Shown in pieces: positions 14,956-17,718 of a DNA stretch of 41,404 bases (its first letter is position 1; the number at the start of each line of letters is the position of its first letter). Made by a program: the position numbers and the translations under genes. Source of the DNA: Sneathiella sp. (GTDB taxonomy: Bacteria > Pseudomonadota > Alphaproteobacteria > Sneathiellales > Sneathiellaceae); NCBI GenBank assembly GCA_021741195.1, contig JAIOYL010000008.1, positions 1-41,404 of the forward strand, given 5' to 3'. The notes under the pieces are model-generated. The model was given only the letters and a program-made list of their open reading frames with translations. It did no database searches and was not told where the DNA came from.

Positions 14956-15939
14956 TCACAGATTTCCCGGAACAAAGTCCCTTTCTTGATGGGAGAATTC
15001 GATTCTTGACTTTTTTTCCCTTAATTGCGCCGATATATCACGAATGTCAAAAACCAGCGCGGCAGAATTATGCACCTCGAGGCATCCTTTGTGAATGGCT
15101 AAAGGGATTTGCATCAGCAATTCACGCTCCCGATCCTTTAGAGACTCCTTTGACTGGCCAATATTATCAAGCAGGTCATTCAACCCGCCGCAAAGAGAAG
15201 AAAGATGGCCGAGCGCTGTTTCCTCCACACGCCCGGCGAGGCGTTTATTGATTGCCCGCATGGCACTTATAACACCTTCGCGGTCTTCGACTTTGTCGAA
15301 GCCGGAAAGGAGAAGGACCGCTGACGAAAGGCGTATCAGTTGCTCGGTATAGATCGATATTTTACGCTCATTCACCGCTTTCATGGCAAGATTTATTGCT
15401 TCTGGCGTCGCCAGGAGTTCAGGCTTGCTCTCAACTTTCGCCTGCAGGGAATTCGGCACAACCAAGGATGATCCGACAGGATAGCTGCGGGAAATCAGAC
15501 GCCGGTCCGGTCCGATATAGTCCGTTGTGACGACAAAAGGTTTTCGCGCCTGAACCAGGCGAAGTATCCGCTCGAAAATCTGGGTTCTCGACATCGGGCG
15601 GGAAATCAGATCATCCGCCCCGGAATTTATGCCGTCGCTAACAGCTTCCGGCGCGGCATTCCAGAGCGAAAGGACGACATTCACGAAAGGATTGCTACCA
15701 ATTCTATGCCGGCGAATCCTCCGGACGATTTCGAGAATATTTGCGTCTGGGGTTCCGGTTTCCGCCAGAATGAGATCGAATTCGCCCGTATTCGCGCATT
15801 CCAGAAAATCATTTATTTCAGCGCAAGCGACGACGTCCCCAAAGCCAATATTCAAAAGAGCGCTGCGGGTATTATGCCGCATCGCAGGCTCTGGATCAAA
15901 CAACAGAACCGTCGCAGGCTGAAAGTGGGAATTGGTCAT
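14956..15939 (-). CDS. Receiver-domain-like (CheY-fold) protein with degenerate phosphorylation site and a C-terminal region of unknown function
   Basis: VLLFDPEPAMR, DLILAETGTPD and NSGADDLISRP align by eye with receiver motifs; a 'TDYIGPDRR' linker follows. Confidence 0.8.
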   Translation of the reverse strand: MTNSHFQPATVLLFDPEPAMRHNTRSALLNIGFGDVVACAEINDFLECANTGEFDLILAETGTPDANILEIVRRIRRHRIGSNPFVNVVLSLWNAAPEAVSDGINSGADDLISRPMSRTQIFERILRLVQARKPFVVTTDYIGPDRRLISRSYPVGSSLVVPNSLQAKVESKPELLATPEAINLAMKAVNERKISIYTEQLIRLSSAVLLLSGFDKVEDREGVISAMRAINKRLAGRVEETALGHLSSLCGGLNDLLDNIGQSKESLKDRERELLMQIPLAIHKGCLEVHNSAALVFDIRDISAQLREKKSRIEFSHQERDFVPGNL

Positions 15940-16454: not shown

Positions 16455-17201
16455 TCACCAATCGTCACATTTTGCCTGCGTTGCCGCATAGGAGTCACGC
16501 GTATCGATTACATCATTTGCCTTCTTCCGGGCCTCATTGAACTCGGTCAACACGGGATCAAGCTCAAAGAGAAGTCGATTGACGATTGATTTCCCTGCGT
16601 CTTTCGGATGCTTCGTGAAAAAAGGTCTTATGGCGGCCGCCCGCTCAGTCAATACTTCAGTTATTTTCGGCAAATACTCGTCGATCATTTTTTTGTTGAT
16701 CCTGACGTGTTCTTCTTCATGCTCCAGAATGGCCTGATAAGCACAAGTATCATTCCGGTATTTCCGGTCAATATATATGTCCGTCTTGCGCGCGCCGAAA
16801 GTCAGTTTCACCGTTTCCAGCCGCAGACAATATTGTCCGGACTTCAACTGCTTGTATTTTGTTGAAGCCCCGATACTCGGGCCGATTGACGAATGGGTCA
16901 GACCCAACAAACTTGCATGCCTGGAAGACTTCGCATATCCGCTTTTCTTGGCAATCCTCTCTATCTGGTGCGAAGAATTACCTCGGTCAATGGTTGGGGT
17001 GGCAAATATGACATTGATGCTGATATTGGGTTGCGTCCAGATTGCAAGACAATTTTTGTCTGTATCCGCGTAAGAATTGCCACTACCCCACAAAATACTG
17101 ATGAGTGAAACAATCTGTCCTGTGGCCGAACGCCAAGGCAGTCCGATCAGGCGGAAAAGTGGCTGCTTTCGCCTTCCTGCCAATTTAACCGAACATCGCA
17201 T
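16455..17201 (-). CDS. Conserved-type hypothetical, probably exported protein with an HExxH (HEEEH) motif
   Basis: Hydrophobic N-terminus ending ..SYAD; YQAILEHEEEHVRINKKMIDEYLPKI. Possible zinc metalloprotease-like fold, not proven. Confidence 0.6.
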   Translation of the reverse strand: MRCSVKLAGRRKQPLFRLIGLPWRSATGQIVSLISILWGSGNSYADTDKNCLAIWTQPNISINVIFATPTIDRGNSSHQIERIAKKSGYAKSSRHASLLGLTHSSIGPSIGASTKYKQLKSGQYCLRLETVKLTFGARKTDIYIDRKYRNDTCAYQAILEHEEEHVRINKKMIDEYLPKITEVLTERAAAIRPFFTKHPKDAGKSIVNRLLFELDPVLTEFNEARKKANDVIDTRDSYAATQAKCDDW

Positions 17202-17718
17202 CTATATCTTCCTGATCGAATGTGACCTCTTCATTATCCTGCTCTTCACCGGTCGAGTGGGCACAATCTGTCAGGTTCTGACCATTTATAATGCTTCCCG
17301 CGCGATCAATAAGCTGACGTATCAAGTGACATCGTCCGACAGCAAACTCTGCATTTTGTTGTTCTTCGCCATCGGACCCAACGGTAGACATTCTTTCTTG
17401 TAACGTACAGATTTCCACATCGAGCTGCTCTGTTGTTGTCTCAAATGGCAGCTTATATTCTGGAGGTGAAAAATCATATGCCTCAATAGCCAGATCCCGA
17501 TCGGCAATTCCGCTTTCGCGAAAATGATTTTTGTAAGAGTTAGGGGACCAGGCGACAAAATCGTCGAGCATATCCGGCATATCAATCACCAGTTCAGCAA
17601 GCATCAAAGCTTCGTTGAAATGATTCAGATAGTCAGTCGCCAGGAGGGTGACATCATTGACATTAGTACTTCGCGCACGGTCGCGAAACTCCTCCAGCGT
17701 GCTCAAATCTTTACTCAT
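17185..17718 (-). CDS. Hypothetical cytoplasmic protein with C-terminal FDQEDIDAMFG motif
   Basis: Complete 177-aa ORF with plausible composition; overlaps the start of the downstream ORF by 17 bp; C-terminus resembles FliM/CheZ-type CheY-binding peptides. Confidence 0.65.
   Translation of the reverse strand: MSKDLSTLEEFRDRARSTNVNDVTLLATDYLNHFNEALMLAELVIDMPDMLDDFVAWSPNSYKNHFRESGIADRDLAIEAYDFSPPEYKLPFETTTEQLDVEICTLQERMSTVGSDGEEQQNAEFAVGRCHLIRQLIDRAGSIINGQNLTDCAHSTGEEQDNEEVTFDQEDIDAMFG

Follow-up and report, generated by a model that had tools for sequence, protein, structure and literature searches.

In E. coli, to our knowledge, the CheY docking peptide is used by FliM and CheZ. The two proteins use one common face of CheY (PMC3774744), and the alpha4-beta5-alpha5 surface is the one that binds FliM-N (PMC11528121). 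Dephosphorylation of CheY relies on an acid together with Gln147 in CheZ, and on an acid together with Asn in CheC/CheX/FliY (PMC3035606).

Here we describe a gene in a 41,404-nucleotide stretch of Sneathiella DNA (the window, by which we mean the whole stretch analyzed; it is the entire contig C133 of its own genome, G000). The open reading frame begins with ATG and specifies a protein of 177 aa ending in VTFDQEDIDAMFG (Table 1). To judge from its sequence, this protein carries a docking peptide of a known kind on a body that is new, in a family that has no name.

Table 1. Parts of the 177-aa protein gene and their positions in the window
Feature	Position	Strand	Basis
177-aa protein gene with CheZ-type C-terminal tail	17185..17718	-	ORF and orthologues
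Helical body, residues 1-145	17284..17718	-	AlphaFold2 and conservation
Invariant body motif T-D29-Y-L-N32-H, residues 28-33	17620..17637	-	64-sequence alignment
Acidic low-confidence linker, residues 146-168	17215..17283	-	pLDDT and alignment
Tail FDQEDIDAMFG plus stop codon, CheY-docking type	17185..17220	-	Likeness to CheZ C termini and FliM peptide; predicted helix 169-175

The C-terminal tail is of the CheZ type

The motif tested was Q-x-x-[IV]-[DN]-x-[LM]-[FL], an amphipathic helix at the end of a protein behind a disordered segment. A stop-anchored six-frame search of G000 for the tail returned three matches, namely the gene of the 177-aa protein and two CheZ C termini, and the reversed pattern returned none in the same search. 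Across 25 genomes of the genus, 60 stop-anchored matches were obtained, comprising 42 in CheZ, 17 in the family described here and 1 other, and the reversed-pattern control again yielded 0. The two CheZ paralogues of G000 end in ...NKAQDEIDALFD (contig C163, adjoining CheY) and ...HEISQDEIDSLFD (contig C60), their last residues being QDEIDALFD* and QDEIDSLFD*, and CheZ proteins of other taxonomic families end in SQDDIDALFD or similar. One CheZ of the genus could be aligned with the E. coli CheZ structure 1KMI, including its C-terminal docking segment SQDQVDDLLD. FliM of the genus carries RVLNQDEIDSLLGFD within its N-terminal part; this peptide (LNQDEIDSLLG) belongs to the same motif class as FDQEDIDAMFG of the 177-aa protein, but it sits N-terminally on a C-ring protein, whereas the latter is C-terminal on a small helical protein.

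Among the 76 family members found in a survey of the class (see below), 70 possess the tail motif, and one further tail, LDQVEIDSLIG, is one residue off the pattern. Outside the tails the motif occurred once in 14,277 aa of family sequence, giving about 0.003 expected per 40-aa segment, and a chance match is excluded. The initial annotation had likened the tail to the CheY-binding peptides of FliM and CheZ, and this likeness held, as the tail shares both its sequence class and its extreme C-terminal position with the two CheZ tails of G000, and the family also co-occurs with CheZ.

In the CheZ encoded on contig C163 (L067, 2755-3381), one docking-like motif, GVDQQYIDTIFDEE, is followed by another, the terminal AQDEIDALFD; such tandem tails were also seen in CheZ of other taxonomic families and in some members of the 177-aa protein family.

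Distribution and conservation of the family

Twenty-one other genomes of the genus were found to carry an orthologue, as were genomes of other alphaproteobacterial families. In the class survey, which covered 387 alphaproteobacterial genomes of at least 90% completeness, the gene was found in 76, about a fifth, and in single copy except in G377. A survey of the phylum (329 genomes) located the family in 31, every one of them within the same class. Members also occur in species of Azospirillum, a model of chemotaxis, and the annotated records label them "hypothetical protein."

Seven body residues, L26, T28, D29, Y30, N32, W57 and Y62, were invariant in an alignment of 64 members. The initial annotation had asked whether conservation is highest in the tail. 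This was not the case, since the body motif L-x-T-D-Y-x-N...W...Y is more strongly conserved than the C-terminal tail. The linker between body and tail varied strongly in length and sequence among orthologues, and behind it the tail consensus LDQ-x-[DE]-I-[DN]-A-[LM]-F-[DG] was kept. That the tail has been retained in 70 of the 76 class-survey members while the linker diverged indicates selection on the tail.

Predicted structure and searches for relatives

As the initial annotation had stated, the body matches no family that can be named, and we found no relative of it in Pfam, NCBIfam or the PDB. Scanning of the 177-aa protein gave 0 Pfam families and a sole, negligible NCBIfam match (E 0.08), and no family recurred when 64 divergent members were scanned singly against the same two collections. 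The CheZ profile (PF04344) did not appear in the list of the 25 best families for these 64 members at E ≤ 1, and none of the CheC/CheX/FliY profiles was among the matches listed for the 177-aa protein or the 64 members. Comparison of the family profile with all PDB sequences gave weak helical matches only, the best being a designed helical bundle (E 0.0017). Searches of openly licensed full text found no literature on the family, nor any on other proteins with FliM-like tails.

Two AlphaFold2 runs, with 30 and 64 homologues, gave mean pLDDT values of 85.8 and 90.0, respectively. The predicted body is all-helical, with block pLDDT values mostly of 90 to 98, about 80 over the first ten residues and 75 to 81 at the hairpin turn; compact N-terminal helices (residues 28-46, 48-56, 62-68 and 74-81) are followed by a long hairpin (86-112/119-144). 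The linker is predicted to be disordered (pLDDT <50 at residues 152-167), and the tail forms a short terminal helix, residues 169-175, in both models. Foldseek searches with the two models returned no match with E <0.15 and no solved relative, the best matches being generic helical bundles. FAT-type four-helix bundles (focal adhesion targeting domain) were near neighbors with TM scores of about 0.4 to 0.58, but their E values were no better than 0.2, and the likeness is that of generic bundles only.

CheZ (PF04344) likewise consists of a helical body and a flexible linker, with the same docking peptide at its extreme C terminus. Nevertheless, the two proteins have no sequence match, their helices are arranged differently, and CheZ was absent among the Foldseek matches listed. 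The catalytic motif of CheZ, FQD(I/L)TGQ, which reads FQDITGQ and FQDVTGQ in the G000 proteins, is likewise absent from the sequence and alignment of the family.

The family co-occurs with CheZ

As part of the class survey, the presence of CheZ was compared between genomes with and without the family. CheZ was present in 70 of the 76 family-positive genomes versus 81 of the 311 others (Fisher, 3 × 10−27) and, among FliM-positive genomes, in 64/66 with the family versus 74/152 without it (1 × 10−13). When genomes were collapsed to taxonomic families (about 159), which is a rough correction for relatedness, the corresponding figures were 35 of 38 and 44 of 121 (4 × 10−10). Outside the genus, the neighbors of the family gene include no recurrent chemotaxis, flagellar or receiver gene, and the family gene does not lie in chemotaxis or flagellar operons. 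G000 has an E. coli-like CheY (E about 1 × 10−41), whose docking face keeps Tyr106, Lys109, Phe111 and Lys119, as read from the alignment. FliM was undetected in the G000 assembly, though relatives carry it; as this assembly is 92% complete, the absent FliM is probably missing sequence.

Since the tail is the same peptide by which CheZ and FliM grip CheY, the family is probably an overlooked CheY partner, and its tail most likely docks on (phospho-)CheY. We consider it likely that the protein combines a small helical domain in the cytoplasm with a linker-tethered CheY-docking helix and acts as an accessory CheY partner alongside CheZ. The tail would bind the alpha4-beta5-alpha5 face of CheY, presumably more strongly when CheY is phosphorylated, as is the case for FliM and CheZ. 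Docking would bring CheY-P and the conserved body together, whichever of the two is recruited to the other, and the body would then execute or receive a second output of CheY-P. On balance, the family is probably an unrecognized alphaproteobacterial partner of CheY-P, either as a new class of phosphatase, with an invariant D-x-x-N helix and a CheZ-type tether, or as a second, non-motor output. If so, it would be a third carrier of the CheY peptide and a widespread one, present in about 20% of the sampled Alphaproteobacteria, Azospirillum included, and would mark an unstudied branch of the CheY signal, that is, a further way of ending the signal or a further site of its action.

Loss and decay of the tail

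Orthologues lacking the tail had been named in the initial annotation as a finding that would count against a docking role. Most members keep the tail, as described above, but it has been lost in some lineages, and in a second sample, 21 family members from the phylum survey, the motif was recognizable in only 7. Nine of these 21 belong to one taxonomic family (f154) in which the Gln was lost and the tails had decayed to forms like EADVDTIMAN, while CheZ read from the f154 genomes still has QDDIDALF or a near form at its end. In another (f65), CheZ was not found in any of the four members, of which three have lost the tail and the fourth retains a loose match. The tail was lost in G090, G169, G462 and G553, all without CheZ. 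Two genomes depart from this trend: G128, in which CheZ, FliM and CheW were not found, keeps the tail, and G052 keeps it with no detectable CheZ or CheW and a weak FliM match only. Disappearance of the tail together with chemotaxis was therefore rejected as a rule, given its retention in G128 and G052 and its decay in f154 despite an intact CheZ; the tail is strongly but not invariably linked to chemotaxis. Most members without the tail still have the D-Y-x-N core of the body, as do members from genomes that lack CheZ. Because the body is kept where the tail is gone, it must have a value without the tail.

Possible roles of the body

D29-x-x-N32 lies on one helix, the first conserved one of the body, and resembles the acid and amide pair of CheZ and of CheC/CheX/FliY, the latter with Asn as in the family, so a phosphatase is possible. 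The protein would then represent a new type of CheY-P phosphatase in which the tail tethers CheY-P and Asp29 and Asn32 enter the CheY active site, the acid of Asp29 being directed to the active-site Lys and the amide of Asn32 orienting the water. Such a role would suit the invariance of D29 and N32 in the 64 aligned members, the use of acid plus amide chemistry by CheZ and CheC/CheX/FliY (PMC3035606), and a plan as in CheZ, running from helical body through flexible linker to docking tail; one FliM-positive genome, G103, has a family member and no CheZ match. However, the family accompanies CheZ and does not replace it, and the motif resemblance is weak on its own. No fold relative was found by Foldseek among known phosphatases, and CheC/CheX/FliY match the family, which has a C-terminal CheZ-type tail, in neither sequence nor fold. 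Moreover, the D-Y-x-N core outlasts both the tail and CheZ in most of the cases described above. We therefore regard the phosphatase as a tentative proposal that is less than probable. We slightly prefer a second, regulated output of CheY-P, because the body persists in tail-less members; in general terms, an accessory CheY-P partner with such an output has the better support.

Alternatively, the job of the body may be independent of chemotaxis, the tail being only an add-on or a relic by which some lineages couple it to chemotaxis. In keeping with this, f65 (no CheZ), f154, G169, G450 and G493 have retained the body despite loss or decay of the tail. On the other hand, retention of the tail behind a diverged linker in 70 of 76 class-survey members implies selection, and the association with CheZ survives the collapse to taxonomic families, so we consider this explanation unlikely.

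The neighboring receiver is a weak candidate partner

The initial annotation had pointed to the receiver protein encoded at 14956-15939 (minus strand) as a possible partner of the tail. The tail would in that case bind this neighboring degenerate receiver, in a genus-specific module that includes a PilZ protein, and the gene order (177-aa protein, DUF922-like protein, PilZ protein, receiver) is indeed fixed in every readable genome of the genus. But the genes flanking this block are equally syntenic, and the adjacency of the 177-aa protein and receiver genes therefore carries no signal. Outside the genus, the receiver was not seen next to the family gene, although the tail is kept there, and a "response regulator" neighbor of the family gene in Azospirillum is unrelated to the 14956-15939 protein.

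The receiver sequence itself speaks against the pairing. It has Glu for Asp57 (DLILAE) and Arg for Lys109 (SRP), and no equivalent of Tyr106 of the CheY docking face was found in it. Across the genus, the phospho-Asp site is Glu in about half of the receivers and Asp in the others, and the active-site Lys is Arg throughout, wherever the motif was readable. The true CheY of G000, unlike this receiver, retains the docking and active-site residues. Thus, the suggestion that the 14956-15939 receiver is the partner was not supported; it appears to be a weak, poor candidate for a CheY-type tail, and we hold such binding to be very doubtful.

The tail could finally be another C-terminal hook that is merely CheY-peptide-like, such as a sliding-clamp-type QxxI..LF peptide, since clamp-binding motifs have a Q-x-x-I-x-x-L/M-F-like pattern that is superficially similar, but in the genus the stop-anchored motif occurs elsewhere on CheZ only, one stray match apart, and an association with CheZ is unexpected for a universal clamp, which makes this reading highly improbable.

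Additional features of the locus and the family

The 14956-15939 protein is response-regulator-like, with a degenerate receiver and a C-terminal part containing a YIGPDRR motif, and is conserved in the genus. The minus-strand ORF at 16455-17201 overlaps the 3′ end of the 177-aa protein gene by 17 bases; its product has an apparent signal peptide and a metalloprotease-like HEEEH (HExxH) motif, and its DUF922 similarity is weak (E 0.04). One family member (L105, 3963-4319) is a frame without the long hairpin, reflecting either an internal deletion or an assembly or frame error, and its terminal DQESVDALLDL tail is kept.
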